Position numbers and translations under genes: made by a program. From NCBI GenBank assembly GCA_030649835.1, contig JAUSES010000036.1:1-38124 (forward strand): a DNA stretch of 38,124 bases, read 5' to 3'. Origin of the DNA: a bacterium. Lineage in GTDB: Bacteria; Patescibacteriota; Minisyncoccia; Phycocordibacterales; UBA1550. Shown in pieces: positions 1 through 36,083 of the stretch. The notes below the pieces were generated by a model. It worked only from the letters and a program-made list of their open reading frames with translations, was not told where the DNA came from and ran no database searches. Position 1 is the first letter of the stretch. Each line of letters opens with the position of its first letter.

Positions 1-135
1 GAATTACGAAACTGAAATATCCCAGCATCGTCTTTGCGAGCAAAGCGAAGCAATCCAGGATTATGCTCGATAAACTCTGGATTGCCACGTTGGATTACCA
101 ACTCGCAAAGACGGAAAACCAGAGTTTCGTAATTC
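1..135. repeat. Palindromic dispersed repeat, copy 1
   Basis: Nested inverted repeats are visible. The outer arms are 1-13 and 123-135 (perfect 13 bp) and the inner arms are 29-40 and 102-113 (perfect 12 bp, CGTCTTTGCGAG). The sequence GCGAAGCAATCCAG follows the left inner arm. The same inner arms and GCAATCCAG/CTGGATTGCC pair recur at 2519-2605, so this is a dispersed family and not a one-off hairpin. Elements of this look are common non-coding repeats in bacteria. No gene is visible in 1-460. Confidence 0.8.
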
Positions 136-218
136 AAAGTATAATAAGTAAAGTATACCCTCACACTTGCTTTTTGTATAATTCAAAGCTCACACGCAAT
201 CCAAGCAGGTGGCTTACT

Positions 219-405
219 CCTATCCGCTCAAAAAAATAGCCCTTAAAAGGGCATATTTTTAACGAGCGGATAGGGTGAGATTCGGTCACGAGTTACTAAG
301 TGTGCTCGAATGATTACATTCTGTGCGTACGAAGTACTCTCGACCCCGACTCGGCAGTTTGAAATGCTTACGCATTTCTCTGCCTCCGTCCTTCGAATCT
401 CACCC
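219..405. repeat. Hairpins with tRNA-Ser 3'-end look-alike sequences
   Basis: Arms 219-229 and 264-274 form an 11-bp stem enclosing a second stem (GCCCTT/AAGGGC). The 19-nt string at 266-284 is identical to 460-478, the 3' end of the tRNA-Ser gene. Part of it (273-284) is repeated in inverted orientation at 394-405, giving a 12-bp inverted repeat. Inside, 353-384 folds into another stem (GGCAG, then GAAATGC with loop TTAC). I see no complete second tRNA. These look like T-arm-derived fragments. Confidence 0.55.
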
Positions 406-422
406 TGCATACAAACGTCAAA

Positions 423-450
423 GTCCGATACCTATTTAAAGGTATCGGAC
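423..450 (-). terminator. Hairpin 3' of tRNA-Ser, possible terminator
   Basis: A perfect 10-bp stem (423-432 with 441-450) with an 8-nt loop lies just downstream of the minus-strand tRNA-Ser. The following minus-strand sequence is only moderately T-rich, so it could be a terminator or a processing hairpin. Confidence 0.5.
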
Positions 451-460
451 CTAGCCGTTG

Positions 461-547
461 CGGATAGGGTGAGATTCGAACTCACGGTCCACTTTCATGA
501 ACGACGGTTTTCAAGACCGCTGCCTTAGACCACTCAGCCACCTATCC
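461..547 (-). tRNA. tRNA-Ser (anticodon UGA)
   Basis: On the minus strand the gene starts GGATAGG at 547 and ends CCTATCC plus discriminator G at 461, a 7-bp acceptor stem. The D-arm region reads GGCTGAGTGGTCTAAGGC. The anticodon loop is CTTGAAA, giving anticodon TGA. A long variable arm follows, as expected for class II serine tRNAs, and the T loop is TTCGAAT. The length is 87 nt. CCA is not encoded; the 3' flank begins CAA. The identification rests on complete arm pairing and is firm. Confidence 0.95.
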
Positions 548-606
548 GTATTTTTGAGCACCAGCCCATCCTATCAAAAAATACCGAAAACGCAATGTTT
601 TAAGCG

Positions 607-650
607 GTAATGAACAGAGTTACAGCTATAGCTGTAACTCTGTTCATTAC
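607..650. repeat. 44-bp perfect palindrome
   Basis: The sequence 607-628 is the exact reverse complement of 629-650, with no loop. It lies between the divergent tRNA-Ser (minus) and ruvX (plus). It could be a cruciform, a dimer-protein site or a repeat remnant. The rest of the 548-847 gap shows no gene and no other strong signal. Confidence 0.85.
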
Positions 651-847
651 GAAGGAAGCGATATTATACCATCCCCAAACAACCTATCCACAATAATCCA
701 AAAATTTTGGCTACGCCATTGTAAAAAGCCTTCAAAATATCCCGATATTCCTCAGTATTTTTACTTCGGCTCGCTCAAGATTTTTTGATTCTTTGTAGAA
801 GAATTATTTGGGGACGATATTAGAATTTTGTGGGGGCGTGCGTGTGC

Positions 848-853
848 TACAAT
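848..853 (+). promoter_or_regulatory. -10 box of ruvX, leaderless spacing
   Basis: TACAAT ends 6 nt before the ATG at 860, so the expected transcription start falls on or next to the start codon. No clear -35 is seen. An AGAGGG string sits directly before the ATG, so a very short SD-like element cannot be excluded. Confidence 0.5.
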
Positions 854-859
854 AGAGGG

Positions 860-1264
860 ATGCGATACTTGGGGATTGATTATGGAACAAAGAGGATTGG
901 GCTTGCTGTCTCCGACGAGGGGGGCATACTTGCTTTCCCATACGCGATTTTAGAGAACACAAAGGGAAGTATAGGAGAGATAAAAACAATTTGCGGGCAT
1001 GAGTCTGTGGAGCTTATCGTCATTGGTGAATCGGTGGACTATAAAGGCGAGCCAAATATTGTAAAAAAAGAAGTTGATAAATTTATTGTGTCACTTAAAA
1101 AAATTGTGAGTATACCTGTCGTGGAGGAGAGGGAGTTTCTTACGACTCAGCAGGCACGGTTTTACCAGACACGAAGGCGCAGGGTGGATGACTCCGCCGC
1201 GGCGATTATTTTGCAAAGCTATCTCGATCGCAAAAACAATAAGCCAATTCTAGAAACACTATAA
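860..1264 (+). CDS. ruvX: Putative pre-16S rRNA nuclease / RuvX (YqgF family)
   Basis: This 134-residue protein opens with MRYLGIDYGTKRIGLAVSD, the RNase H-like first strand of the YqgF family with catalytic Asp7. It also contains VIGESVDYKG and a C-terminal RRRVDDSAAAIILQSYL, the family's DDxAA helix with acidic metal ligands. The family trims 16S rRNA precursors and was originally named as a Holliday junction resolvase. The length is typical of the family. I chose ATG 860 over an upstream in-frame start at 830 because the domain starts there and a -10 box precedes it. It is a single gene, divergent from tRNA-Ser, followed by a strong hairpin at 1291-1326. Confidence 0.93.
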   Translation: MRYLGIDYGTKRIGLAVSDEGGILAFPYAILENTKGSIGEIKTICGHESVELIVIGESVDYKGEPNIVKKEVDKFIVSLKKIVSIPVVEEREFLTTQQARFYQTRRRRVDDSAAAIILQSYLDRKNNKPILETL

Positions 1265-1290
1265 AATTGAAACCTCGAGCTTTTCCCGCA

Positions 1291-1326
1291 TCCCGCATTT
1301 GCTCGCTATCGCGAGCAAATGCGGGA
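1291..1326 (+). terminator. Strong hairpin after ruvX
   Basis: A perfect 16-bp stem (1291-1306 with 1311-1326) has loop TATC and is followed by ATCAATTTT. The stem is very stable but the U-tract is weak. It is a likely terminator or transcript-end hairpin for ruvX. Confidence 0.6.
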
Positions 1327-1339
1327 ATCAATTTTGACC

Positions 1340-1368
1340 TTGACAGAATAGTCACTTAGGTGTATACT
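1340..1368 (+). promoter_or_regulatory. Near-consensus sigma-70 promoter
   Basis: TTGACA (1340-1345), a 17-nt spacer and TATACT (1363-1368) form the best housekeeping promoter in the window. The predicted start near 1375 leaves a leader of about 68 nt before the gene at 1443. Confidence 0.85.
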
Positions 1369-1442
1369 TTAACCATTGTTCTTTGAAGAAGAAGACTCGT
1401 GTACCCGAACGAAGAGGGGATATTTTTTGAGAGGAAGCAGTC

Positions 1443-1943
1443 ATGACAATGGCAAATGCGGTCGTGCGCAAAAATAAGATTTTTAAACCCCACACCTACT
1501 TTAAAACCCGTAAGGGGTTGCGGGTTTCAAACGAGTTCAATCGTCGTGTTCTCGCAAGGCAACCTGTTTCAATTTTGTATCGTGGTTGCGAAGGAATGAC
1601 AAGCTTTGTCCTCCCTAGACTTATGTCTGACCACGAAATCATTAACGAATTTCTGGGCGGCATAGATGAGGTGTTTACACACGGGATCACACTTGACCAA
1701 ATCGCAGAAAAGATTGATCTACAACCAAATGGCAAAGACGGCGAACTCTTGAACAACGGACAAACAAATATATTCTTCTATGTGTCGGTAATCCCGAAAG
1801 TGTATTTCGAAAGTCACTTTGCTGTTAGTGTGAAATGGGATTCGGGTCGCCACGAGTGGTGGGTGTGTGATTGGCCTCTCAACTGGTTTGGCGGGTGGGG
1901 ATCCGGCTCCCGAGGCTTTCGCAATACGACCTTGAAAGCTTGA
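1443..1943 (+). CDS. Conserved-looking hypothetical protein, probably highly expressed
   Basis: This is a 166-residue soluble protein with no signal peptide or membrane segment. I do not recognise a family. The N-terminal 45 residues are basic (many Lys/Arg). The C-terminal part is rich in Trp and Gly (HEWWVCDWPLNWFGGWGSGS), suggesting a compact aromatic domain. It is a monocistron. A near-consensus promoter at 1340-1368 and a 68-nt leader precede it, with GAGAGGAAG a few bases before the ATG, and a very strong intrinsic terminator (1966-1999) follows. The stop is TGA. ATG 1449 is an alternative start. The control signals suggest strong constitutive expression. The function is unknown. Confidence 0.8.
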   Translation: MTMANAVVRKNKIFKPHTYFKTRKGLRVSNEFNRRVLARQPVSILYRGCEGMTSFVLPRLMSDHEIINEFLGGIDEVFTHGITLDQIAEKIDLQPNGKDGELLNNGQTNIFFYVSVIPKVYFESHFAVSVKWDSGRHEWWVCDWPLNWFGGWGSGSRGFRNTTLKA

Positions 1944-1965
1944 AGTCTAGGGTTTTTTGACTCTG

Positions 1966-1999
1966 GCCCCCCGACACTTTGTCGGGGGGCATTCTTTTT
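1966..1999 (+). terminator. Intrinsic terminator
   Basis: A perfect 10-bp GC-rich stem (1966-1975 with 1981-1990) has a 5-nt loop and is followed by ATTCTTTTT. It terminates the gene at 1443-1943. Confidence 0.95.
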
Positions 2000-2000
2000 G

Positions 2001-2006
2001 TATACT
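2001..2006 (+). promoter_or_regulatory. -10 box of the tRNA-binding protein gene
   Basis: TATACT directly follows the U-tract of the preceding terminator and ends 9 nt before ATG 2016, leaving almost no leader. No strong -35 is visible because that position is occupied by the terminator stem. Confidence 0.45.
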
Positions 2007-2015
2007 GCACTCACC

Positions 2016-2486
2016 ATGACAAAAATACCAGAAATTACTTTTGATGAATTTAAAAAGGCGGACATTCGCATTGGGACAATTTTGTCTGCGGAGAAAGTTC
2101 CTGATGCTGATAAATTGATTAAGCTTATGATTGACATTGGGCTAAAACCCTCTGCGCAGAGCGCAGATGGTTCACCCAACCATTCGTCAGAGACGAATGG
2201 TTTAGGGCTAAAACCTACTTCGCAGGTTCGCCCGACCGCCGAAGGCGGCTTAGGGGAGGTGCCTGATATCCGGCAGATTCTCTCGGGGATTGCGCAATAT
2301 TATCCCGACCCAGCCGTCCTTATAGGGAAGCAGGTGCCGGTGCTTACCAATTTACCCGTTCGCACGATTCGTGGATTGGAGAGTCAGGGGATGGTGCTTT
2401 ATGCCGTAGGCGAACATTTGGGCGAAGGATTTTTAGCAACCGTTGGTCCTGACCGCGAGATTCCAAATGGGACCCCGATACAGTAG
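2016..2486 (+). CDS. MetRS beta-type tRNA-binding (EMAP/OB-fold) protein with an in-frame insertion
   Basis: This 156-residue protein matches the free-standing C-terminal tRNA-binding OB-fold of methionyl-tRNA synthetase. It begins with ITFDEFKKADIRIGTILSAE and VPDADKLIKLMIDIG. It resumes with IRQILSGIAQYY, GKQVPVLTNLPVRTIRGLESQGM and ends near GTPIQ. Such domains bind tRNA or act as chaperones for synthetases. Between residues about 42 and 82 lies a low-complexity stretch (GLKPSAQSADGSPNHSSETNG and onward) that homologs normally lack, encoded by a hairpin array (see 2139-2262). The frame is intact, so the protein is probably still made with a surface loop. I chose ATG 2016 over TTG 1998, which lies in the terminator tail. 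Confidence 0.85.
   Translation: MTKIPEITFDEFKKADIRIGTILSAEKVPDADKLIKLMIDIGLKPSAQSADGSPNHSSETNGLGLKPTSQVRPTAEGGLGEVPDIRQILSGIAQYYPDPAVLIGKQVPVLTNLPVRTIRGLESQGMVLYAVGEHLGEGFLATVGPDREIPNGTPIQ
2139..2262 (+). repeat. Hairpin-array insertion inside the tRNA-binding protein gene
   Basis: Four consecutive mini-hairpins with 3-nt loops are visible: 2151-2167 (7-bp stem), 2178-2202 (11-bp stem), 2212-2226 (imperfect) and 2236-2248 (5-bp stem). GGGCTAAAACC occurs twice, at 2139-2149 and 2205-2215, exactly 66 bp (22 codons) apart. The array keeps the reading frame open through about 41 codons. It looks like a mobile or expanding palindromic element tolerated in a coding region. Confidence 0.7.
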
Positions 2487-2518
2487 GTCCTAAGAAATAC
2501 AAAACGATGCCCACCTGT

Positions 2519-2605
2519 TTGTCTTTGCGAGTGAAGCGAAGCAATCCAGTATCAGAGTGTTAAATACTGGATTGCCACGCGCTTTGCGCTCGCAAAGACG
2601 AAAAA
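2519..2605. repeat. Palindromic dispersed repeat, copy 2
   Basis: This is the second member of the family seen at 1-135: GTCTTTGCGAG, then GAAGCGAAGCAATCCAG, and after a short centre CTGGATTGCC and CTCGCAAAGAC. The whole unit folds on itself. It sits between two convergently unrelated plus-strand genes with no promoter role that I can see. Confidence 0.8.
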
Positions 2606-2638
2606 CGAAGGTTTATAATTTAAAAAAATAAAAATTAA

Positions 2639-3256
2639 ATGCCCACTATTCCTCACTTCGATATTATTCAGCTTATCCAAGCTTTTGGGTACCTTGGTAT
2701 TTTGGGCATCGTGTTTGCAGAGTCTGGGGTGCTCATCGGTTTCTTTTTTCCCGGCGACAGTTTGCTTTTTGCCGCTGGGCTTCTCGCCTCGCAGGGGCTC
2801 CTCAACATTTGGATACTAATTATTTTTATTCCCATTGCCGCAATCCTTGGCGACAACTTTGGATATTGGTTTGGGTCAAAAGTGGGACCAAAGATTTTTA
2901 CACGCGAGGATTCATTTTTCTTTCACAAAAAACATCTAGAACGCACGCGAGATTTTTATGCAAAGTATGGAAACAAAGCCATCGTCCTTGCACGTTTCAT
3001 TCCTGTTGTACGAACCTTCACACCGATTCTCGCCGGTGTAGGGCAGATGCGCTACAAAACTTTTCTTACCTACAATATTTTAGGAGGGGTGCTCTGGGGC
3101 GCAGGAATGACACTCCTCGGCTATTTTTTGGGCGCGCTCGTGCCTAATATTGATCAATATCTTTTACCCATCATGCTCGTCATTATCGCTATTTCTTTTT
3201 CGCCCATCATTCACGAAGTCATTAAACACAGAAAAGGTGACCATACTACCGACTAA
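2639..3256 (+). CDS. DedA family membrane protein
   Basis: This 205-residue integral membrane protein belongs to the DedA/VTT (SNARE-associated) family, whose members include lipid scramblases and putative transporters needed for envelope homeostasis. Family hallmarks are visible: acidic Glu28 in the first hydrophobic segment, FFPGDSLLFAAG (37-47), GDNFGYWFGSKVG (71-83), and ARFIPVVRTFTPILAGVGQM (118-137) with the conserved arginines. A last membrane helix lies at about 170-192. The length is normal. There is no SD before ATG 2639; an A/T-rich run precedes it. It is followed by an inverted-repeat intergenic region. Confidence 0.92.
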   Translation: MPTIPHFDIIQLIQAFGYLGILGIVFAESGVLIGFFFPGDSLLFAAGLLASQGLLNIWILIIFIPIAAILGDNFGYWFGSKVGPKIFTREDSFFFHKKHLERTRDFYAKYGNKAIVLARFIPVVRTFTPILAGVGQMRYKTFLTYNILGGVLWGAGMTLLGYFLGALVPNIDQYLLPIMLVIIAISFSPIIHEVIKHRKGDHTTD

Positions 3257-3263
3257 ATGATTG

Positions 3264-3370
3264 ACCCCCACACCAACTTTTTACAAAAAATTTTTGATGC
3301 ATTTATAATCTGTGTTGTTTCAAAATAAAAATAGTGACTTTATAACGTGACAAAAAGTTGGTGTGGGGGT
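3264..3370. repeat. 19-bp perfect inverted repeat around the pilM promoter
   Basis: The sequence 3264-3282 is the exact reverse complement of 3352-3370, with a 69-nt A/T-rich centre. The right arm abuts the -10 box of pilM. It may be a short insertion-element footprint, a long-stem attenuator or an operator. Confidence 0.75.
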
Positions 3371-3375
3371 ACACT
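3370..3375 (+). promoter_or_regulatory. -10 box of the pilus operon, leaderless spacing
   Basis: TACACT ends 6 nt before the pilM ATG (3382). The expected transcription start coincides with the start codon. The box touches the right arm of the inverted repeat. Confidence 0.45.
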
Positions 3376-3381
3376 ATAAGA

Positions 3382-4458
3382 ATGAAGCGAAGCAAGTTCT
3401 ATAGATTTTTTCCTCCACCGCAGTTTTTGCAAATGCCCGCGGTTGGTTTGGATATTTCAGATGTGTCAATGCGTTTTGCTGAGCTTGTTGAAAAAAGAAA
3501 AGGGTTTGTGCTCGGACGTTTTGGTGAGCGCGCAATTCCACGGGGGGTCATTGAGGGCGGAGAGGTCAAAAAACCAACAGAGCTTCGCGCCATCTTTGCC
3601 GATATTAAAAAAGCATACAACTTGGAATTTGTTTCTGTGTCACTTCCCGAAGAGAAGGCATATCTTTTTGATCTGCGCCTTCCTGTCATGAAATATAGCG
3701 ATATTCGGGGGTCTATTGACCTTGCGCTTGAAGAGCACGTGCCTTTAAAAGCAGATGAAGCGATTTTTGATTACGATATTGTGAAAGAAGATGAGTCTAG
3801 TATAACGGTGAGTGTGTCTGTTGTTGCAAGATCACTTGTTGATGGGTATCTTGAGGCGTTTTCTGGCTCAGGAATAACACCACTTGCTTTTGAGGTCGAA
3901 GCGCATTCCATTGCGCGGTCCATTGTTCCCGCGGGCGACAAAAATACTTTTATGACGGTTGATTTTGGCAGAACGCGCACAGGAATAGCAATCGTTACTG
4001 AAGGGGCAGTACAGTTTACTTCTACCGTGCTCGTGGGGGGAGGGTCGCTCACGGATATTATTGCAAAAAAACTGAAGGTTTCTTACGATGAGGCGGAAAA
4101 AATGAAACATGATAAAGGAATTTCTGGGAACAGCACCAACGATGATATTTCGTTGGGGCTTATGTCTATGATCTCGATTCTTCGTGATGAGATAAGTAAA
4201 CACCAAACATATTGGCAGGAGCATCCGGATGACTATGGTAAAAAACGTGCACCAATTCAAAAAATATATCTTTGTGGTGGCGACTCAAACCTAAGCGGGT
4301 TTTCAGGATATCTTGCTTCAGGGCTCACTGTCCCCGTGGAACTTGCGAATACCATGGTAAATATAAATACACTGGATGAATATATTCCTGAAATTAGTTT
4401 CAACGACTCGCTTCGTTATGCGACCGCATTTGGACTTGCGCTTAGGCGACCAAAATAA
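3382..4458 (+). CDS. pilM: Type IV pilus assembly ATPase-like protein PilM
   Basis: This 358-residue protein has the actin/FtsA-like fold of PilM, the cytoplasmic ring component of the type IV pilus alignment complex that binds the PilN N-terminus. AVGLDISDVSMRFAEL (20-35) is the phosphate-1 strand. Mid-protein TVDFGRTRTGIAIV and LVGGGSLTDIIAKKL are further nucleotide-binding segments, and YLCGGDSNLSGF is the adenosine motif. It is the first gene of a pilM-pilN-pilO-like operon, with pilN 6 nt downstream. I chose ATG 3382 over an upstream in-frame codon at 3358, which lies in the inverted repeat. Confidence 0.93.
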   Translation: MKRSKFYRFFPPPQFLQMPAVGLDISDVSMRFAELVEKRKGFVLGRFGERAIPRGVIEGGEVKKPTELRAIFADIKKAYNLEFVSVSLPEEKAYLFDLRLPVMKYSDIRGSIDLALEEHVPLKADEAIFDYDIVKEDESSITVSVSVVARSLVDGYLEAFSGSGITPLAFEVEAHSIARSIVPAGDKNTFMTVDFGRTRTGIAIVTEGAVQFTSTVLVGGGSLTDIIAKKLKVSYDEAEKMKHDKGISGNSTNDDISLGLMSMISILRDEISKHQTYWQEHPDDYGKKRAPIQKIYLCGGDSNLSGFSGYLASGLTVPVELANTMVNINTLDEYIPEISFNDSLRYATAFGLALRRPK

Positions 4459-4464
4459 CATACC

Positions 4465-5025
4465 ATGCTCAATATTCTTTCAACAGAGGAAAAGAAAAAA
4501 ATAATCGCGCTCTATCGTTTCCGTCTTGCGGTTGTAGTTATGTTTGCACTCGGGTCCCTCGTCCTTGCGAGTTTGGTTTTACTTGCGCCATCATACTTGC
4601 TCGCAATTTCCAAATACAACAATTCTCAAGAGCAGCTATCTATATATGAAAAAAGATATAGTCGTGGCGAGCAGGAAAAGGAAATAAGCGCGCAGATTCG
4701 CGAGATAAACAGCAAAATACTTCTGCTTTCAGGGGGTGATACGAGTACGCGCATGGCACCATCGGCAGTAGTCTCTAAAATTTTAGAGCTTAGAAAAAAC
4801 AACGTAAAGATATATGGGTTTACGTATGATTCAAGCACAAATGTGGAGCGAGTTGTTCTTACCGGGACGGCGATTGATCGCGACGCTCTTGCAGATTTTA
4901 TTGAGACGCTAAAAAAGGATCAAACGTTTACCGGGGTTACACTTCCGATCTCAAGCTATGTTAAAAGTAAGGATATAGATTTTTCTATTGTCCTTGAACG
5001 AAAGGAAACAACAGTAAAAAAATAA
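4465..5025 (+). CDS. pilN: PilN-like pilus alignment protein
   Basis: This 186-residue bitopic protein has a short cytoplasmic N-terminus beginning MLNILSTEEKKKI, one hydrophobic helix at about 21-48, a charged coiled-coil-like stretch at 50-95, and a C-terminal ferredoxin-like region (NVERVVLTGTAIDRDALADF and onward). This is the architecture of PilN, the partner of PilM and PilO. Its position immediately after pilM supports the call. It is the last gene before a 330-nt non-coding stretch that separates it from pilO. Confidence 0.85.
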   Translation: MLNILSTEEKKKIIALYRFRLAVVVMFALGSLVLASLVLLAPSYLLAISKYNNSQEQLSIYEKRYSRGEQEKEISAQIREINSKILLLSGGDTSTRMAPSAVVSKILELRKNNVKIYGFTYDSSTNVERVVLTGTAIDRDALADFIETLKKDQTFTGVTLPISSYVKSKDIDFSIVLERKETTVKK

Positions 5026-5060
5026 GCAAAATCAAGGAGCAAAGCGATTAGGATTTTCTT

Positions 5061-5315
5061 ATCCAGTTCTCGTTTTGTTGTTGATTAGTGACGTAGAGCG
5101 AGCGAAGTGCAAAAGTAATCTTTTGCACTTCCGAGCCGAGGAGCTAATATAAGGGTTGAATACCCCGCCCCTCTGGGGCGGTAAATGTGTGAACAAAGTG
5201 AACAACATTTTAGCCGGGGGTTGCCCCGTGGTAGATACCGCTTTTATTGGGAAAAAAGAATGTAGTGATATAAATTATATGGTAACATTATCTATATACA
5301 AAACGAGAGCTGGAT
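5061..5315. repeat. MITE-like structured element between pilN and pilO
   Basis: Terminal arms 5061-5078 and 5298-5315 are inverted copies (17 of 18 match, ATCCAGYTCTCGTTTTGT). Inside are a perfect 9-bp hairpin (5107-5115 with 5120-5128) and a 7-bp GC hairpin with loop TCT (5165-5171 with 5175-5181). No open reading frame of note is present. The layout suggests a small non-autonomous transposable element or structured RNA inserted in the pilus operon. The rest of 5026-5355 holds nothing recognisable. Confidence 0.6.
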
Positions 5316-5355
5316 GGCGATTTTAATCTCGCCGTGCTCGTTAAAATTAGCCACT

Positions 5356-5931
5356 ATGAAAGCTGATAAAAAAACATTAACACTTCTGGGGATCGCGACC
5401 ATCTTTACGCTTGCATCAGGTGGCCTATATGCCTTTTTGTTCTACATAATGAAGGATAAAACAGAGGCAACCCTGGTGGTCTCAGAAAGACTAGATGATC
5501 TTTCTGGAAAGGAGTCTCGCGTGGTGTCGTCAATATCAACGCTGAGACAAGAGAGTGAAAATATTGAAAAACTTTCCAACTACTTTTTTAAGGAAAATGA
5601 AGTAGTGGCATTTACAAAAAAAATTGAAGCACTTGGGCCTCAGTCGGGGACAGTACTAACCATTGAGTCTCTTGAGCAAGGGTATACAGAAAAAAAGGCA
5701 CCATTTTTAAATTTTCGCATACGAGCAACGGGGAGTTTTGCTGATGTTGGGCGGCTACTCGTCCTTATTGAAAATTTTCCTGGGAAAATTGAATGGAAAA
5801 ATGTAAGAATAACACGTGATTCAGTCCCAGCAAACCAGGATTTGGTGGACGGGAAAGTGGTAGCCCCAGTGGTGACCACCCCCGAGTGGCGCATGGAAGC
5901 ATTTTTAGTGGCACTAAATTTCATCAATTAA
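5356..5931 (+). CDS. pilO: PilO-like pilus alignment protein
   Basis: This 191-residue bitopic protein has an N-terminal transmembrane helix at about 8-30, a coiled-coil stretch at 35-75, then a ferredoxin-like domain (FLNFRIRATGSFADVGRLLVLIENF), matching PilO. PilO heterodimerises with PilN in the periplasmic alignment complex. I chose ATG 5356 because the transmembrane helix begins there; an upstream in-frame codon at 5314 lies in the inserted element. The next gene follows after 3 nt. Sequence conservation in this family is low, so architecture and synteny carry the call. Confidence 0.8.
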   Translation: MKADKKTLTLLGIATIFTLASGGLYAFLFYIMKDKTEATLVVSERLDDLSGKESRVVSSISTLRQESENIEKLSNYFFKENEVVAFTKKIEALGPQSGTVLTIESLEQGYTEKKAPFLNFRIRATGSFADVGRLLVLIENFPGKIEWKNVRITRDSVPANQDLVDGKVVAPVVTTPEWRMEAFLVALNFIN

Positions 5932-5934
5932 TTT

Positions 5935-6273
5935 ATGAAAAACATTTCTCAAATAAACTGGAAAGCAGAATTAAAAAAAATTACAAATTCAAAGGGCGTT
6001 GATGCGCTTAAGTTGGAAATTACGCCGTATCGAGATTGGAGAATCGTGGTTGCTGTGTTTTTTTTAGGGCTCCTTTCTTCATTTGCGTTTAATGTGTACA
6101 TGTCAATTGAAATAAACCGTGATAGTTTCTTTACAACACTGCCTAAGAGTACAGGTGTTGTAAGGTTTAATGAACAAGGTCTTGCAAAGGTAGTTGCTGG
6201 GCTTGACGAAAAAGCGGCTGTTTTTGAAAAGGCTGTAACAGAGGGAGTGGCAATGATTGACCCATCTTTGTAA
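5935..6273 (+). CDS. Small single-span membrane protein of the pilus operon
   Basis: This 112-residue protein has a soluble N-terminus (1-34), one hydrophobic helix at about 36-56 and a C-terminal tail of about 55 residues. It begins 3 nt after pilO and is probably co-translated with it. No domain is recognised. Its topology resembles an additional PilN/PilO-class component or a PilP substitute, but that is inference from position only. Confidence 0.7.
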   Translation: MKNISQINWKAELKKITNSKGVDALKLEITPYRDWRIVVAVFFLGLLSSFAFNVYMSIEINRDSFFTTLPKSTGVVRFNEQGLAKVVAGLDEKAAVFEKAVTEGVAMIDPSL

Positions 6274-6426
6274 GAGAGATTTCTCGTGGTAGAGTTCATT
6301 CTAGTTGAAAGTGTTTACGTCCATGACGCGAATCTGCTGATTCGAAAGTCCGTAAAGTCACAAGTAAATATCCCCAAGTGCCCACTTTACAGACTTTTGA
6401 CCTTTAACTTTATGGACTGGTTTTAT

Positions 6427-6498
6427 GCCCCTGTAGTTAAATGGATATAACTGCGGACTTCTAAGCCGTTATTCGAGGTTCGATTCCTCGCGGGGGCA
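6427..6498 (+). tRNA. tRNA-Arg (anticodon UCU)
   Basis: The acceptor GCCCCTG pairs with CGGGGGC (one T-G wobble), with discriminator A at 6498. The D stem is GTTA/TAAC. The anticodon loop CTTCTAA gives TCT, and the T arm is CGAGG-TTCGATT-CCTCG. The length is 72 nt. The anticodon stem has an A-G mismatch next to the loop. CCA is not encoded. The 3' end and flank are the parent sequence of the dispersed repeat found at 9976, 16901 and 20256. The preceding gap (6274-6426) holds no recognisable feature. Confidence 0.94.
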
Positions 6499-6548
6499 CA
6501 GGCATGTGAGACAGACCGAAAGGCCTTATTCTATAAGGGTTTTCAGGA
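6494..6548 (+). repeat. tRNA-Arg 3'-flank copy of the module-boundary repeat
   Basis: GCACAGGCATGTGAGACAGA (6496-6515) followed by CCGA differs in only two positions from the core of the 153-bp repeat. ATAAGGGTTTTCAGGA (6533-6548) recurs at 9976-9992 with one extra T. Thus the last bases of tRNA-Arg and its flank are the anchor of the repeat family. A 14-bp palindrome (TACCTCGCGAGGTA, around 6594-6607) lies further downstream. Confidence 0.75.
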
Positions 6549-6645
6549 AAAGTGAGAGTATAAAAAGCGGTTCGGTAGTATTCTTAGTGGGTTACCTCGC
6601 GAGGTAGACCGGGAGAGGTGGTTCACAGTGGAAAGGTAATAAAAC

Positions 6646-6672
6646 AAAAAACACCAATTTGTGGTGTTTTTT
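6646..6672. terminator. Bidirectional intrinsic terminator
   Basis: The stem 6646-6656 pairs with 6662-6672 (11 bp) with a 5-nt loop and has A and T runs on the two sides. It can terminate the minus-strand Fic/primase-helicase operon ending at 6677 and any plus-strand transcript from tRNA-Arg. Confidence 0.9.
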
Positions 6673-6676
6673 GCTG

Positions 6677-8794
6677 CTATTCTACCCCAAGTTTCTCTTT
6701 GTAAAACTTTTGTCGCTTTTTAAACTGTCGGTCGAGAAATTCTACTTTTTCGTCGTGAAAATCAATGACGTATTTTAGCCCTTCGCCACGAAGCCTCCCA
6801 ATATACTGAACAAGTTTTCCTTCAAATGAAAATGGGAACGCGAGGACGATGGTGTCGATACTGTGCACGTCGAACCCCTCGCCGAGTAATTGCCCTGTCG
6901 CAAGTAGTACTTGAAAGTTTCCCGCCTTTATTTGGTCATGTTTAAGTTTCCGCGAACGGGCGGAATCATCTCCCGAGATGGCAATAGTTTCCGCTTCTCC
7001 GCGCAGGTAAAGGTTGAGGATTTCGACGTGCTCTTTGCGCTCGGTGAGTACCAGCACTTTTCTTTTGGCCTTAACTTCTTTGAGTATCGCCTTAGCAACT
7101 AGCTCATTTCGCGTAGAGTCATATGAAATTACCTTCGCGATTGTTTCATAATGGTCTGTTTTGTAGCGAAACGGAAGGGTTACTTTTGTTGGGTGAATAG
7201 TTATCTCGAATGTTTTGCTGCTTGCGGTATCAGATGCCTTTGCCTCTGCAATAATTGGTCCAATTACAAACTCAGTAATCTTTTCCGTCCCATGTTTTCG
7301 CTCATGCGTTGCGGTGAGTCCGAAACAGTACTTACTTTTAAAAGACCCAATTAGCTCCCGATATGTTTTTGCGGGAAGATGATGGCATTCATCGATAATA
7401 ATCACACCAAAAGAATCCTGTAACTCTGATAGGTTTTTGTATCTCGTGAGACTTTGTATCGTTGCAATTGTTATTTGTTTACCAACTTTTTTCTTTACCC
7501 CCGAGATCACGCCAATCTGTGTTTTGGGGATACCTAAAAATTGCTCAGCACGCTCAATCCATTGGGAAAGTAATTGGTTGCGATTTACGAGAATGAGTGT
7601 TGGTAAACCAAGTTTTGCTGTTAACTCAAGGGCGATGATAGTCTTACCACTTCCTGGAGGAGAGATGATGATGCCGTTCGTTTTATTATTGAGTGCTACG
7701 AGCAGTTTCTCCTGCTCCTTATGTAGGGTGATATTACTTTTAAATTTTACCGATTTATGTTTTTTGTAATTCTCAGTAATTTTGTGGGTGATATTTTCCT
7801 TGTCCAGGTAGTCTGTAAGTTTTTCGAGAAAACCACGTGGAAGCGAGAGTTCATCATTATTATCCTTTATCAGGTTGAAATATTTTTCAGTGCCGAATAC
7901 AGATTTGCCCATTCTTTTCTTTGCAACATATTCTTTGTTAAAAAGATTGAGCTCTTCTTTTATAAAAGTGCTGACGCCTGAAGGAAGTCCTTGTTTCTTT
8001 ATACGTATCGCTCCGTCGAGTAATATTTTGAGAGAGGAAATATTTGGTTGTTGTGGGCTGACACCACTATTTGAAAATAGAGCATCGTACGCAGAATCAA
8101 TTTCCTTGGATGTGTGTTTATGTACCGTCTTTAAAAATTCCCACTGATTAGGATGTGCTATAAAAGTATCGGAATCACAAAATAGGGATGTGCCATGCGC
8201 GACTCGCTCGCCTTGAAGAGGGAGTGCGATTAAGTTCCCAAACCCACCATCAGTGATAGTATCTTGGTTTGGGAACAATCGGTCGAAACTGATTTCTTTT
8301 GCAAATTCAGAATAGCCAAAAATCTTACGTATGAGCTCAAGCAGAATGGCGCGTGATTTCCAGCACGGGTACTTGTTATTAAAGAAGGCCCACACATGGC
8401 AACCGTTGCCTGATCGAGAAATTTCCGTGTAAGCCTTTATTCCAATCTCCTCACATTTGTCTACAAGTTTTTTGCTGTCAGCTTTCCAGTCAGCTTCATC
8501 AAAATCTGCAGCAATAAAATACGAAGTATTATCCTCGAGTATCGGGTACATACCAGCGGTTTCTTTGCCAAGTAGGTGGCTCAATAAAACACCATCAGTA
8601 AGTGGCAGTAGTGTCTTATTCTCGAAGTCTTTGATGGTGCCACCTCTTGCTCTGTGCCCATTAAATTCATCCCAGTCAAAAGAATATGCAGGAGTCCATC
8701 CACTTTTACCATTCTTCTCCCATCGCCTAGGAAATGCATCAGTACGACCTCGAAAGAGTGCCTTGTAGATCGTGAGTTTTTCTTGGTTAGTCAT
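6677..8794 (-). CDS. TOTE-type archaeo-eukaryotic primase fused to an SF2 helicase
   Basis: This is a 705-residue two-domain protein. The N-terminal primase shows the AEP pattern: ADFDE with Asp97/Asp99, SGNGCHVW with His133, FPNQD with Asp178, then GGFGNLIALPLQG. This is the signature of the primase domain of TOTE conflict systems, a proposed anti-parasite class. The helicase follows with Walker A SPPGSGKT (378-385), DECHH (468-472), LTATHE (493-498), an ATGQLLGEGFDV motif and QYIGRLRGE. No C-terminal nuclease domain is visible after the helicase. It probably makes or extends primers on unwound nucleic acid. It starts 11 nt after the fic stop, so the two form one operon. A role in defence or in replication of a mobile element is inference. 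Confidence 0.85.
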   Translation of the reverse strand: MTNQEKLTIYKALFRGRTDAFPRRWEKNGKSGWTPAYSFDWDEFNGHRARGGTIKDFENKTLLPLTDGVLLSHLLGKETAGMYPILEDNTSYFIAADFDEADWKADSKKLVDKCEEIGIKAYTEISRSGNGCHVWAFFNNKYPCWKSRAILLELIRKIFGYSEFAKEISFDRLFPNQDTITDGGFGNLIALPLQGERVAHGTSLFCDSDTFIAHPNQWEFLKTVHKHTSKEIDSAYDALFSNSGVSPQQPNISSLKILLDGAIRIKKQGLPSGVSTFIKEELNLFNKEYVAKKRMGKSVFGTEKYFNLIKDNNDELSLPRGFLEKLTDYLDKENITHKITENYKKHKSVKFKSNITLHKEQEKLLVALNNKTNGIIISPPGSGKTIIALELTAKLGLPTLILVNRNQLLSQWIERAEQFLGIPKTQIGVISGVKKKVGKQITIATIQSLTRYKNLSELQDSFGVIIIDECHHLPAKTYRELIGSFKSKYCFGLTATHERKHGTEKITEFVIGPIIAEAKASDTASSKTFEITIHPTKVTLPFRYKTDHYETIAKVISYDSTRNELVAKAILKEVKAKRKVLVLTERKEHVEILNLYLRGEAETIAISGDDSARSRKLKHDQIKAGNFQVLLATGQLLGEGFDVHSIDTIVLAFPFSFEGKLVQYIGRLRGEGLKYVIDFHDEKVEFLDRQFKKRQKFYKEKLGVE

Positions 8795-8805
8795 AACCGT
8801 AGGAG

Positions 8806-9861
8806 TTACTGCTTCTTCTTGTAGCGCGTCGTTCGTCCTTGCCCGATACGTTCTACTTTTTTCAAACGGAGGAGAGTGTCGAGTGCTTGTGACACGGTGG
8901 GACGGGCCACACTGGTAGCTTTTGAAATTTCCCCAGGGGTTGCCTCGACTACTTGCTCAAGATATTTCCAAACCAAGAGCTGTTTTGGAGAAAGGAGCTT
9001 TTCTATGTTTTCTTTTGAGAGTAGCTCAATTGCTTGCTTTGATTGCTTAAGTAGAACATTAAGAAAAAACTCAAGCCATGGCGTGATGTCTGTTTTCGCA
9101 GTCTTTAAAGTTTTCTGGCTTTTGCGAAGAGCAATATAGTATTCTGCTTTATTATCCTCAACTAATTTTTCATGTGATACATACGGCGTGTATGCGTATC
9201 CAGATTGTAAGAGGAGTAGATTTGTTAGAACACGAGAAAGCCTACCATTGCCATCTTGGAATGGGTGGATATTTAAAAATTCAACGAGGAAGTTTCCGAT
9301 GATGAGCAGGGGATGAGTTTCTTTTAGAAGAACTGCTTCACGAGTCCACTCTACGAGCTCCTGCATTTCTTTTGGAGTGAGGTATGCAGGGGTTGTGTCG
9401 AAGAGTGTTCCGACAGACTGCCCAGCCTCATTGACCATTTCAACTTTGTTTTCAATCCTCTTGTATTCTCCACGGTGTAACTTATCTTTCTCGACATATT
9501 TCAGCAGCTCGCGATGTAGATGTTTGATAGTACTTTCTGAGAGGGGAATACTGTTCCACGCATTGAATACGTTTTCGAGCAATTCGTAATATCCTTGAAC
9601 TTCCTGAATATCTCGGTCAGCAAATTTTTGCATCGAAAGCCCGCGCATCATTTTCTCAATGTCTTCGTCAGAAAGCTTAGAGCCTTCAATACGTGTCGAT
9701 GCTCCTGTCGAGGTCACTAAAACAGAGCGTCTCAATCGCCCGAGTGCTTGTGGGTTTATCTTTGCTCCACCAACCCACTGACCTTTCAACTCATCAATTT
9801 GGTTAATGAGTGACCAGATATTTTGTGGGATATTTGCAATGCGTTTATTGAAGTGGTTCAT
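8806..9861 (-). CDS. Fic family protein (putative AMP transferase) with C-terminal winged helix
   Basis: This 351-residue protein carries the complete catalytic Fic motif HPFQDGNGRLSR at 199-210 and an N-terminal inhibitory motif STRIEG at 55-60 (S-x3-E-G). It is therefore a class II enzyme expected to be autoinhibited. An N-terminal Fic_N-like segment precedes the core, and a winged helix-turn-helix lies at about 291-345 (GEISKATSVARPTVSQALDT). Fic enzymes transfer AMP, or other nucleotide parts, to target hydroxyls. It is the first gene of an operon with the primase-helicase. An 11-bp inverted repeat directly upstream of the start fits binding by its own winged helix. The target is unknown. 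Confidence 0.93.
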   Translation of the reverse strand: MNHFNKRIANIPQNIWSLINQIDELKGQWVGGAKINPQALGRLRRSVLVTSTGASTRIEGSKLSDEDIEKMMRGLSMQKFADRDIQEVQGYYELLENVFNAWNSIPLSESTIKHLHRELLKYVEKDKLHRGEYKRIENKVEMVNEAGQSVGTLFDTTPAYLTPKEMQELVEWTREAVLLKETHPLLIIGNFLVEFLNIHPFQDGNGRLSRVLTNLLLLQSGYAYTPYVSHEKLVEDNKAEYYIALRKSQKTLKTAKTDITPWLEFFLNVLLKQSKQAIELLSKENIEKLLSPKQLLVWKYLEQVVEATPGEISKATSVARPTVSQALDTLLRLKKVERIGQGRTTRYKKKQ

Positions 9862-9865
9862 AGTG

Positions 9866-9902
9866 AATCTAATATACTATATATATGAGATTATATTAGA
9901 TT
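9866..9902 (-). promoter_or_regulatory. Operator-like inverted repeat upstream of fic
   Basis: AATCTAATATA (9866-9876) is perfectly repeated in inverse at 9892-9902 with a 15-nt A/T-rich spacer holding TATA-like boxes. It begins 4 nt upstream of the fic start codon. It overlaps the expected promoter, so a bound dimer would repress; autoregulation by the Fic winged helix is an inference. Confidence 0.6.
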
Positions 9903-9975
9903 AGCACTTTTAGTGCAAGGAGTTTGCGGAAAGCTAATTTGTTTATATTTGGCATTGCTAAAATATCCAATAGTA

Positions 9976-10325
9976 ATAAGGGTTTTTCAGGACCACCTCT
10001 CTAGTGTGACCGAGAGGGTTGGATTCTTAGCGCCCGCACAGGCATATGAGACCGACCGAGGTCCATAAAATAAGGGTTTTTTGAGGGTCGGAAAAGGCAC
10101 CCCGCTAGTACATCGAACTTATGGTATTTAAACTATGTTTTCCAATGACCCCTCTAGTGTGGCCGAGAGGGTTAGATTCTTAGAGCCAGCACAGGCATAT
10201 GAGACCGACCGAGGTCTGTAAAATATAGGTTTTTTGAAGATCGAAAACAGCACCCCGCTAGTACATCGAACTTTTGTTATTCCAGTCATATTTTTCAAGG
10301 ATCCCTCTGTTGTGATTAAGAGGAG
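9976..10325. repeat. Tandem tRNA-Arg-derived 153-bp repeat, copies A and B
   Basis: CTAGTG anchors at 10001, 10154 and (degenerate) 10307 give a period of exactly 153 bp. Each unit has a hairpin CCTCT...AGAGG, a degenerate T-arm (GAGGGTTRGATTCTTAG), the core GCACAGGCATATGAGACCGA (as in the tRNA-Arg flank), GGTTTTTTGA, and CACCCCGCTAGTACATCGAA. A partial unit, ATAAGGGTTTTTCAGGA, precedes copy A at 9976-9992. The gap 9903-9975 holds nothing recognisable. Confidence 0.9.
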
Positions 10326-11194: not shown

Positions 11195-13225
11195 ATGGTA
11201 AAAAATTTTTCACACAAATTAACCGTGGTAGCAGTTTTAGGTGCGGGCATTATTGTCGGGGGTATTTTTGTGTATAGCAAGTCAGTTGAAAAAAGTAACA
11301 CCATAACATTTGTTGCAGGTACTAACGATAAAATCCGATATATAAAAGCAAAAGATTGCCCCGAGGTGGCGTATGAAAGCAAGGACACCAATGATTATTT
11401 TTACAGCATGTGCAAGGCATATACGACGGATGGTTTATCTGTGTATTACGATGGGATGCGTGAAATGGTACTACCTACTATGATTTCCCCCGTGATGATA
11501 AACGGACGCTTTTCGAGCTCCTCGCTGCCTACTTATAGACAATCAGAGCCGGAGCCCGTTCTCCTTGAGGGTGTTGATTTGAGTACGTTTGAGATAATCT
11601 CAACAGATTATCTTGAGGACTCGCTTGACCCAAAACAGAACCCCACCCTTACCTACGCGCGAGATAGAAATTCTCTTTATCGATTCGGAGAGAAAGTTGT
11701 TGATGCTGACCCCAACACGCTTATAATCCTTGGCAACGGATACATGAAGGACAAAAATTCAGTCTATTTCCAGGGGAAGAAAATGGAAGGTTCAAATGCC
11801 AAGACATTTAAGTTTTTGAAATATGGATATGCGCATGATAAAAATTTTGTGTATCTAATGCAACAACAGGGTAAAAAAATAGAAAATTCAAACGGCGAAA
11901 CATTTAAGATTCTCGACGAGAATTATGCGAAAGATTCCAACGCAGTGTATTACCAGCAAAAGAAATTAGAAGGTGCTGACCCGAGCACGTTTGAAATCGT
12001 ATACCAGACATATCCAGAAGGGGGAGCACCCGCTTATCCGAGTGGATATACAAAAGACAAAAGCTCGTTGTTCTATCAAGGGGTACGCGTAGAAGGCGCT
12101 GATCCCATTACGTTTAAGTTAATCGGGTATGGAGTATTTGCACACGACAAAAATTTTGTATACGGTTCTATAGCAAAAAAACTTTTGTGGATTGATGCAA
12201 GTACTTTTGAAATTGTTTCCGATGGGTATTTTAAAGATAAAAATGCCGTGTATTACGGTGAAGGTGCCGTCGTTAATAATGCAGACCCTGCAACATTTAA
12301 GTATCTGAGCGGAGGCTATTTAAAGGACAAAAATTCAGTATGGAAATCAGTCTATTCTGATGAGGGTGGCGCGGTAGGGTCAATGCCCCTCATCAAAAAT
12401 GCAGATTCTGAAACTTTTCAGTTTGTAAAATATAGTTATGCGCGCGATAAAAATTTTGCGTATTATTATGGCGAAGTTATCCCTGGTGCAATTCCCTCAT
12501 CGTTTGTGGCACTTGAGCAGGTTTATTCGAAAGACAGTAACTCAGCTTTCTATCTGAAGGACAAAATAAATAATGTGGATGCAGCTTCTTTTGAAGTTGT
12601 CGACAGTATGTATAGCAAGGATAAAAATTCTGTGTACCATCGAGGAGTAAAACTTGAAGGTGTCAATCCTTCGTCCCTTGCGATATTTACTTGCGGGTAT
12701 GCGAAAGATGCTTCAAAAGTATTTAGGGTAATGTATGACGGCAAGATGACCCTCATGGATGTTTCTGACCCGAGTTCGTTTACGATGTTTGAGAATGGCT
12801 GTTATGCCAAAGACAAAAACTTTGTGTATTATTTTAACTATGACGGCTCAAAAATCGAAGGAGCAAATCCGAAAACATTTGAGGTTATTGATGGTTGGTA
12901 TACTAAAGATTCAACATCGGTGTATTATTCGGGATTGAAAATCGAAGGCGCAGTTCCTAGTTTGTTTAAGGTAATGAATATTGAGTATGCAAAAGATAAA
13001 AACTTTGTGTATTACAAAGGGAGCAAAATCGATGGCGCAGACGTTGTCTCTTTCGAGATTGGGACGTATGGCACAGAGGTAAGGGACAAGAATACAAAGT
13101 ATCTGTCAGGGAGAGCTGTCAAAGCAGGAGAGCTGATTCGCCCCGATGGAACAATAGTCCCTGGACCAAGTGTGTATGGACTACCCACTGGTATTCCAAT
13201 ACAAATATATCCAATGGGGCTTTAA
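11195..13225 (+). CDS. DKNYY-repeat surface protein
   Basis: This 676-residue protein has an N-terminal signal-anchor (about 7-27) followed by roughly fifteen repeats. The repeats have the pattern YxKDKNxVYYxGxKIEGADPxTFEIL; examples are GYMKDKNSVYFQGKKMEG, NYAKDSNAVYYQQKKLEG and EYAKDKNFVYYKGSKIDG. This is the DKNYY family pattern, predicted to form short beta units on the cell surface. The repeats differ at the nucleotide level, so they are old. It lies in a surface operon and precedes a four-helix membrane protein. Host contact or adhesion is plausible for an episymbiont but is inference. Confidence 0.85.
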   Translation: MVKNFSHKLTVVAVLGAGIIVGGIFVYSKSVEKSNTITFVAGTNDKIRYIKAKDCPEVAYESKDTNDYFYSMCKAYTTDGLSVYYDGMREMVLPTMISPVMINGRFSSSSLPTYRQSEPEPVLLEGVDLSTFEIISTDYLEDSLDPKQNPTLTYARDRNSLYRFGEKVVDADPNTLIILGNGYMKDKNSVYFQGKKMEGSNAKTFKFLKYGYAHDKNFVYLMQQQGKKIENSNGETFKILDENYAKDSNAVYYQQKKLEGADPSTFEIVYQTYPEGGAPAYPSGYTKDKSSLFYQGVRVEGADPITFKLIGYGVFAHDKNFVYGSIAKKLLWIDASTFEIVSDGYFKDKNAVYYGEGAVVNNADPATFKYLSGGYLKDKNSVWKSVYSDEGGAVGSMPLIKNADSETFQFVKYSYARDKNFAYYYGEVIPGAIPSSFVALEQVYSKDSNSAFYLKDKINNVDAASFEVVDSMYSKDKNSVYHRGVKLEGVNPSSLAIFTCGYAKDASKVFRVMYDGKMTLMDVSDPSSFTMFENGCYAKDKNFVYYFNYDGSKIEGANPKTFEVIDGWYTKDSTSVYYSGLKIEGAVPSLFKVMNIEYAKDKNFVYYKGSKIDGADVVSFEIGTYGTEVRDKNTKYLSGRAVKAGELIRPDGTIVPGPSVYGLPTGIPIQIYPMGL

Positions 13226-16864: not shown

Positions 16865-16892
16865 AAGCGCATTATTCCAAATTGCGCTTTTT
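16865..16892 (+). terminator. Intrinsic terminator after the VanZ-like gene
   Basis: AAGCGCA (16865-16871) pairs with TGCGCTT (16883-16889) across an 11-nt loop, followed by TTT. It ends the operon beginning at 10366. Confidence 0.7.
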
Positions 16893-16900
16893 CAATGTAA

Positions 16901-17135
16901 CCCCCTAGTGTGACCGAGAGGGTTAGATTCTAAGCGCCCGCACAGGCATATGAGACCGACCGAGGTCTGTAAAATAAGGGTTTTTTGAGAGTCCAAAACA
17001 GCACCCCGCTGATACATGGAACTTATGGTATTTAAACTATATTTCTCAAGAGTACCCACGGGCCTAATTAAATGGGTACTCAATCAGCTCGGTTATAATA
17101 TCAACGAAATATTGATATTATTTGCATTTGGTTTT
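16901..17135. repeat. tRNA-Arg-derived repeat, copy C, plus downstream shared block
   Basis: One 153-bp unit starts at the CTAGTG anchor (16905) and holds GAGAGGGTTAGATTCT, the core GCACAGGCATATGAGACCGA, GGTTTTTTGA and CACCCCGCTGATACATGG. After it, CAGCTCGG (17085-17092) and AATATTGATATT (17108-17119) recur with the same spacing at 20361 and 20386 beside copy D. A 10-bp inverted repeat at 17095-17104 and 17112-17121 and a GTACCCA/TGGGTAC hairpin also lie here. The unit separates the surface operon from the ABC exporter. Confidence 0.85.
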
Positions 17136-20255: not shown

Positions 20256-20400
20256 GTTTTTTGAGTGTCGAAACCTCGACCACGCTCGTACAGAGAACTT
20301 TTGTTATTTAAACTACATTTTCCAATGACCCACTAGTGTGACCGAGAGGGTTATCGGCCACAGCTCGGCGATGATATTCTCGCAAAATATTGATATTTTT
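20256..20400. repeat. tRNA-Arg-derived repeat, copy D (half unit plus next start)
   Basis: TTTTTTGAG, a degenerate CACGCTCGTACAGAGAACTT, TTGTTATTTAAACTACATTT and TCCAATGACC are the second half of a unit. They are followed by the start of the next unit (CTAGTG at 20333, GTGACCGAGAGGG). The unit breaks off and is replaced by CAGCTCGG (20361) and AATATTGATATT (20386), the block also found after copy C. It separates the NUDIX gene from the metabolic cluster. Confidence 0.8.
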
Positions 20401-29084: not shown

Positions 29085-29103
29085 ATACACACATCAATGA
29101 CGC

Positions 29104-30549: not shown

Positions 30550-30607
30550 GGCCTGTGTTTATACAAAAAGAATGCAACTAAATTTTTGTGTTTAAAAATG
30601 ATTGGAG

Positions 30608-30613
30608 TATACT
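30608..30613 (+). promoter_or_regulatory. -10 box of the AlbA/ATPase gene
   Basis: TATACT ends 8 nt before ATG 30622, leaving at most a two-base leader. Confidence 0.4.
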
Positions 30614-30621
30614 TTGAACAC

Positions 30622-32034: not shown

Positions 32035-32149
32035 AAGCTTTTAGGAGCAATATAAAAACCCCTTATAAAATAACGTCAAAAATCAATATTATTGACCATT
32101 GCTCGTTGGGAGCAATTAGAGACAGTCGTGGTGGTGTTCTAACCAAAAT

Positions 32150-32446
32150 AGTTTAATCCTTCAATTTGCAGACGAGATGGAGAAAGTTGCTAAGGAATTT
32201 TATCGCGTATTAAAACCAGGGAAATTCTGCGCAATTTTGATGGGGGATACTCGCCGTAACAAAATGTACCAGCCTCTCGCATTCAAAGTTATGGAGCGTT
32301 TTCTTAAAACAGGCTTTAAATTAAAGGAGGACATTATCAAAAGACAGTTCAACTGTAAAGCCACGGGCTTTTGGGTAAACAAATCGAAAGATGCCAATTT
32401 TTTACTGATAATGCATGAGCACTTGTTTATTTTTCAGAAAATCTAA
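32150..32446 (+). pseudogene. C-terminal remnant of a DNA methyltransferase
   Basis: The open frame from about 32150 encodes about 98 residues. Its core, EKVAKEFYRVLKPGKFCAIL then MGDTRRN and TGFKLKEDIIKRQFN, is the C-terminal half of an N6/N4-type DNA methyltransferase. The SAM-binding and DPPY parts are missing upstream, where the frame breaks within about 100 nt. An ATG at 32177 could start a small protein, but it would lack catalysis. It is the decayed methylase of a lost restriction-modification pair. A 6-bp hairpin (TTGCTC/GAGCAA) lies near 32099. Confidence 0.7.
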
Positions 32447-32568
32447 AACAAGATAGGCTGGACAATAGATCTGCCAATCTTTCAAGTATTTGAGCAAATT
32501 TGATAGCATATAAGCATGGATTAACTTGCCTAAGAAAGCGAGCAATCCTCCTCCATTTCAAAAGCTTT

Positions 32569-33774: not shown

Positions 33775-33779
33775 TCTTT

Positions 33780-34178: not shown

Positions 34179-34213
34179 TAACTCTTGTTTTGAGGACCAC
34201 GCCCTCTCATCAA

Positions 34214-34600: not shown

Positions 34601-34603
34601 TTT

Positions 34604-35497: not shown

Positions 35498-35569
35498 TTT
35501 CGTTCATTACCACAGTAAACTCTTCTTTCTGTGTTCACGGCCAAACATTTGAATTTCTCGGTCAATTAC

Positions 35570-36082: not shown

Positions 36083-36083
36083 A

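Follow-up and report, generated by a model that had tools for sequence, protein, structure and literature searches.

A Fic enzyme paired with a primase-helicase: a candidate mobile defence cassette of Patescibacteria

What might an autoinhibited Fic enzyme do when its gene lies directly in front of that of a primase fused to a helicase, in the small, reduced genome of a patescibacterium? The question is raised by a stretch of 38,124 nt (contig JAUSES010000036.1 of assembly GCA_030649835.1, hereafter the window) from a genome of 1.06 Mb (77 contigs, 98% complete). A two-gene operon on its minus strand codes for a 351 aa Fic protein (nt 8806–9861) and, after a gap of 11 nt (nt 8795–8805), for a 705 aa AEP-helicase (nt 6677–8794), i.e., an AEP primase domain fused to an XPB-like SF2 helicase; gene positions and domains agree with a preliminary description of this DNA. 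Many relatives carry the pairing too, with several Fic versions unrelated to one another, and on this ground the cassette is probably a device against viruses or plasmids that has yet to be described. The reading we prefer, with a probability of about one half, is that of a mobile two-gene defence cassette of Patescibacteria, in which Fic would be the toxic effector and the primase-helicase would sense or act on invading DNA.

The Fic protein carries the complete active-site motif HPFQDGNGRLSR at residues 199–210 and the inhibitory motif STRIEG at residues 55–60, upstream of the Fic core, both as noted in the preliminary description. The active-site motif is thus accompanied by an [S/T]xxxE[G/N] motif placed N-terminal to the core, and the AMP-transferase-like protein is therefore assigned to the autoinhibited class II Fic enzymes. 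The Pfam Fic family was matched at 3.2e-17, and weak MarR/ArsR-like matches in a profile search point to a winged helix-turn-helix (HTH) at the C-terminus. The best PADLOC model was SoFic (PDLC03963, 3.5e-44) and 8uqu was matched in PDB (1e-32); against the NCBIfam SoFic equivalog the protein scored 48.5 bits and did not pass the cut-off of 550, and we place it in a subfamily related to SoFic and not among its equivalogs. The Fic structure prediction had a mean pLDDT of 45.7 and the model was not used. SoFic, reported as an anti-phage abortive-infection protein (PMC12249575), is likewise a class II Fic with an N-terminal inhibitory motif, the motif HPFx[DE]GNGR and a C-terminal domain, which in the window protein is the one with winged-helix matches. 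SoFic of Shewanella and E. coli acts alone or with the 47-aa antitoxin AS1, encoded downstream of the E. coli gene (PMC12249575), whereas the window Fic precedes a primase-helicase. No convincing small antitoxin open reading frame (ORF) of the SoFic-AS1 kind was seen among the ORFs of 20 aa or more around the Fic start, and the 11 nt on the 3' side of Fic leave no space for one.

Residues 5–234 of the AEP-helicase match the Pfam AEP-TOTE family (PF22548; 2.1e-75, 253.7 bits against a cut-off of 27), the other Pfam matches being ResIII (4.7e-31) and Helicase_C (2.4e-8). The primase motifs are intact (DFD97, spanning residues 97–99; SGNGCH at 128–133; DRLFP171, in which D171 is the third acidic motif), as are the SF2 helicase motifs (GSGKT381, DECHH468, TAT494 and QYIGRLRG663), and all of them are invariant or nearly so across 20 homologues with identities as low as 34%. 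The AEP half is closest in sequence to CAPP PrimPol (PADLOC PrimPol PDLC01465, 1.2e-67; PDB 7nqd, 1.7e-12), the helicase half to archaeal XPB and RadD. The first structures retrieved with the predicted model of the AEP-helicase (pLDDT 71, pTM 0.48) were XPB-Bax1 complexes, and the model supports an XPB-like helicase half alone.

AEP-helicase loci were read and tallied by hand in three genome samples, drawn from the order (relatives), the class and the phylum. The AEP part was found in about 32 loci. In 16 of them the gene immediately upstream, on the same strand, codes for Fic, mostly at gaps of 0–30 nt; the order sample, with the window counted, contributes 10 of its 11 loci, the class sample 2 of 9 and the phylum sample 4 of 12. 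Fic genes number 174 in 197 relatives by a hand sum, or about one in 900 if each genome has ≈800 genes, and at this background some 0.04 upstream pairings would be expected by chance; the binomial values ignore relatedness and are indicative only. Both genes are under purifying selection, with ratios of nonsynonymous to synonymous substitution rates (dN/dS) against near relatives, where computable, of 0.04–0.10 for Fic and 0.07–0.09 for the helicase, and this, together with the recurrence, argues that the adjacency is not due to chance. The possibility, raised in the preliminary description, that the adjacency is unique to the window genome was thus not borne out. Its other reservation, that the AEP-helicase might be a housekeeping enzyme, was also ruled out: the gene is accessory, being carried by 3 of 16 same-genus genomes only.

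With 35 AEP-helicases placed on a tree, seven changes are needed to explain which of them have Fic upstream, and the Fic subfamily of the window occurs in at least three places of that tree, separated by well-supported branches. We read this as several independent pairings, which together involve at least four Fic subfamilies: the SoFic-like one of the window, an XRE-type HTH fused to Fic (loci L038, L039, L044, L048 and L086), that of L077/L080 and that of L083. Compared with the window, Fic of L037 is 75% identical and its helicase just 51%, the corresponding values for L034 being 64% and 66%; since helicase and Fic trees differ, the pairs have probably been re-formed over time. It could be argued that two independent defence genes merely share defence islands with no functional link, given that each occurs without its partner (including L046, L047 and L076) and that both tend to lie in islands where restriction and toxin genes abound. 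Set against the short gaps, the same strand and the same order, kept across several Fic subfamilies and at helicase identities as low as 38%, and against an adjacency far above the Fic background, this is the least probable of the explanations considered here.

Several observations weigh against the defence-cassette reading. In L036, L038, L052 and L086 Fic is intact and the helicase is broken or truncated, though errors of assembly or of metagenome-assembled genomes are possible there; Fics of the window subfamily occur without helicase in 13 further loci, several of them near contig ends; close relatives of the window Fic also stand alone on Rhizobium and cyanobacterial plasmids; no Fic was found beside the AEP-helicase in 14 plasmid loci read by eye; and in L019 an extra gene lies between Fic and helicase, both genes being kept. 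Since close relatives are found by themselves in many genomes as well as on plasmids, we conclude that Fic does not need the helicase, a point on the same side. The helicase, in turn, is not an obligate antitoxin, since Fic stays intact in loci with a broken or truncated helicase and in those with none; and as the helicase is elsewhere paired with PIN, AbiEii or restriction-modification genes (see below), neither gene requires its partner. The absence of Fic from the 14 plasmid loci also suggests that the Fic version of the pair may be patescibacterial. The Fic of L019 (nt 250–1308) has its catalytic His replaced (RPFADGNGR) in a protein otherwise conserved, the sole such loss among the paired Fics aligned; the inhibitory Glu is retained in 16 of 16.

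The toxin-first order of the operon, with the helicase gene in the position taken by AS1 of SoFic (PMC12249575), might recall a toxin-antitoxin pair of a type II-like kind, with the primase-helicase as the protein that neutralises Fic. We consider this highly improbable, both for the persistence of intact Fic just mentioned and because one would hardly expect a pure antitoxin to be a 705-aa protein made of two enzymes whose catalytic motifs are conserved.

The predicted promoter/operator of the operon (nt 9862–9911, minus strand) consists of AATCTnATATAATCTnATATA ... TATTAGATT, an inverted repeat overlapping a TATAAT -10 box. Promoters of the window's Fic subfamily were aligned for 11 paired and 3 unpaired genes, and all 14 show AATCTnATATAATCTnATATA-like repeats and, after them, an inverted half-site, in overlap with the -10; the pattern has a single match within the window, against 0.02 expected. 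XRE-Fic promoters carry instead two AACTTTATAAAGTT palindromes 14 nt apart, and each of the two Fic types thus brings its own DNA-binding domain and operator. A decayed locus, L041 of genome G060 (nt 7531–9309), contains a helicase fragment and, in opposite orientation, a truncated Fic of the window subfamily adjoined by an operator of the XRE-Fic type; it looks like the replacement of one Fic type by another at a single site.

The position of Fic as first gene of the operon, with an HTH domain and an operator in front, could also indicate a regulator, namely one that restrains by AMPylation, or represses through its winged helix, a primase-helicase that would itself be the defence enzyme, attacking or filling in foreign DNA, until infection occurs. 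All paired Fics keep the Glu whose counterpart in FICD supports deAMPylation (PMC6408439), and the helicase is also found with restriction-modification genes or without an obvious toxin. However, the operator accompanies the Fic subfamily even in the absence of the helicase (L117 and L119) and for this reason looks like self-control of Fic, probably self-repression through the winged-helix domain, and the substitution of PIN or AbiEii for Fic (see below) points to toxic activity as the conserved feature. Fic as a regulator of the primase-helicase is quite unlikely.

Where the AEP-helicase lacks Fic, what lies immediately upstream is often another toxin or restriction gene. An AbiEii nucleotidyltransferase lies directly upstream of a 1007-aa AEP-helicase in L161 (nt 2–3925 of an IMG/VR contig), and AbiEii also takes the upstream slot in L092 and L244, both on Arcobacter plasmids; the slot is occupied by ribbon-helix-helix (RHH) and PIN genes in L073, by HigB and HTH in L089, by NYN in L091, and by an N6/N4 methyltransferase with a TdeIII endonuclease in L049. 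The last is taken as a partner swap because the L049 helicase falls within the XRE-Fic clade of the helicase tree. A Vsr gene is found ≈200 nt upstream of the AEP-helicase in L074, and no upstream partner was recognisable in L047, L076, L078 and L079. AbiE-type and PIN/HigB toxin-antitoxin operons thus resemble the window operon in that a homologue of the AEP-helicase directly follows a toxin gene (L161, L092, L073, L089), and differ from it in having a nucleotidyltransferase or RNase toxin in place of Fic. A broader reading would be that of a modular immune system, with the AEP/XPB-like helicase as a universal detector of invading DNA that switches on exchangeable upstream effectors (several Fic subfamilies, AbiEii, PIN and restriction enzymes), the Fic freed from its helix being the main patescibacterial version; we put it forward as a tentative possibility. 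In a separate context, L124 (nt 3950–7018), a Fic of the window subfamily stands directly before a cytosine methyltransferase and an HpaII endonuclease, without helicase, and is tied there to a restriction-modification system.

How, then, might the cassette of the preferred reading work? Three points speak for Fic as the proposed effector: other toxins replace it, the PADLOC model closest to it is SoFic, with its reported abortive infection, and gyrase and topoisomerase IV are targets of AMPylation by Fic toxins (PMC13327609 and PMC7479194). Its own inhibitory helix would keep it inactive, and the winged-helix domain would probably let it repress its own expression. For the primase-helicase, whose domains engage DNA, a role as sensor or trigger is proposed: it would engage DNA that is foreign or abnormal (forks, ends or replication intermediates, for instance) and thereby lift the inhibition of Fic, either directly or via a nucleotide or DNA signal. 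The freed Fic would AMPylate an essential host target, by analogy gyrase or topoisomerase IV, and growth of the host would stop before the invader spreads; the helicase may itself also process the invading DNA. As the trigger of autoinhibited SoFic during infection is an open question (PMC12249575), a recurrent primase-helicase partner offers a direct, testable candidate trigger for autoinhibited Fic toxins.

The operon was also placed, in the preliminary description, on an island at a tRNA, and this location is confirmed by comparison with relatives. The apparent insertion site is a tRNA-Arg(TCT) gene (nt 6427–6499, plus strand), which points its 3' end at the operon and lies 177 nt away from the stop codon of the helicase gene. 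A pilin-assembly gene lies beside the site in 16 of 16 same-genus genomes, and same-genus contigs that are long enough show pilNOP followed by tRNA-Arg(TCT) and often by tRNA-Val; in most same-genus genomes the site is empty, i.e., tRNA-Arg without the operon. In genome G004 the operon follows tRNA-Arg just where it does in the window, and in L018 it lies at tRNA-Arg too, other copies being found at tRNA-Trp, -Ser, -Gln or -His. A tRNA is present on the stretch in 14 of 18 Fic-helicase loci, with the 3' end of the nearest one towards the operon in 14 of 14, and this end is at most 450 nt from the operon in 9 of the 18.

Repeat comparison showed that 43 nt of the tRNA 3' end and its tail (att-like copy 1, nt 6477–6519, plus strand) recur inside an intergenic repeat of 153–162 nt. 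Two tandem 153-nt copies of it (nt 9985–10299, plus; tail copies at 10017–10059 and 10170–10212, 79–81% identical) are a possible right boundary of the island, a third lies at nt 16889–17050 (plus; tail copy at 16921–16963) and a partial one at nt 20256–20353. The repeat is confined to this contig of the genome and had no match in Rfam, where the tRNA was the sole match. The copies look like scars of serial insertion at the tRNA; another origin is possible. No integrase was found inside nt 6500–10000, nor a relaxase or origin within the 3.5-kb cassette segment. Further along, the window codes for a large serine recombinase with Resolvase, Recombinase and zinc-ribbon domains (nt 27765–29090, minus strand). 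Similar recombinases adjoin AEP-helicase or Fic genes in L043, L079, L118 and L162 (Pfam-checked in L162 only), and this recombinase type may move Fic/AEP-helicase cassettes.

Such a setting would also suit an addiction and replication cassette of a mobile element, in which the AEP-helicase replicates or repairs and Fic stabilises, with no anti-viral role. AEPs are common on mobile elements (PMC5862659), toxin-antitoxin genes are frequent around plasmid copies of the AEP-helicase, and the tRNA 3'-end sites, the tRNA-tail repeats and the serine recombinases adjoining some copies (L079, L043, L162) all fit. This explanation is nonetheless unlikely: the cassette segment is without integrase, relaxase or origin, plasmid copies adjoin separate replication genes (repA in Pantoea), the XPB/RadD-like helicase is not a typical replicative one, restriction enzymes in the Fic slot are ill-suited to a replication role, and none of 50,697 phage records matches 80% or more of the AEP-helicase. 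A viral origin is ruled out by this phage comparison and by IMG/VR, where the full architecture was present in 3 of 80 loci, one of them with Fic.

Among the described systems that come close is TOTE, named for TPR, OB, TBP and Effector (a naming credited to Aravind, Iyer et al. 2022 in PMC12458937). The preliminary description had called the primase TOTE-type, and this holds for the domain, which belongs to the Pfam AEP-TOTE family, and not for the system. No TBP (PF00352) was matched in the source genome, given its 98% completeness and 77 contigs, the controls being positive in four archaea; the operon consists of two genes only, no TPR or OB partner was recognised in it, and none was found in the flanking genes scanned with Pfam, which are part of the window ORFs. 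As TOTE implies all four components and the genome is without TBP, membership in a TOTE system is ruled out. Fusions of PrimPol and helicase that lie outside CRISPR have been outlined before (PMC8211822), and the non-CRISPR CAPP-helicase PrimPols (third type of CAPP_A; PMC8211822) resemble the window protein through the matches to PDLC01465 and 7nqd, the catalytic motifs of CAPP-type AEPs (DxD, xxH and third acidic) being all present. Unlike CAPP PrimPols, the window locus has no CRISPR context and is paired with Fic; no Cas1 was found in the source genome, which rules out a CRISPR-associated PrimPol. A toxin with a DNA-engaging enzyme would be a known kind of system, the pairing of Fic with a primase-helicase being what appears new. 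Indeed, no description of this pair was found in the searchable literature, most subscription journals lying outside the search, in line with the preliminary description, which knew of none. The pair offers a role for the non-CRISPR PrimPol-helicases that mobile DNA carries, and with it the ultra-small Patescibacteria, whose defence is little studied, gain a candidate immune module.

Two further regions of the window were recorded. Past the island, nt 11195–13225 (plus strand) code for a 676-aa protein with DKNYY repeats (six stretches above threshold), adjoining a 273-aa protein without Pfam match. The region at nt 30586–37412 contains more genes of a mobile-element-like kind, for an SLFN/AlbA_2 protein with a RecG-like C-terminal domain, an SNase-family nuclease, and ParB_N with an N6/N4 methyltransferase.
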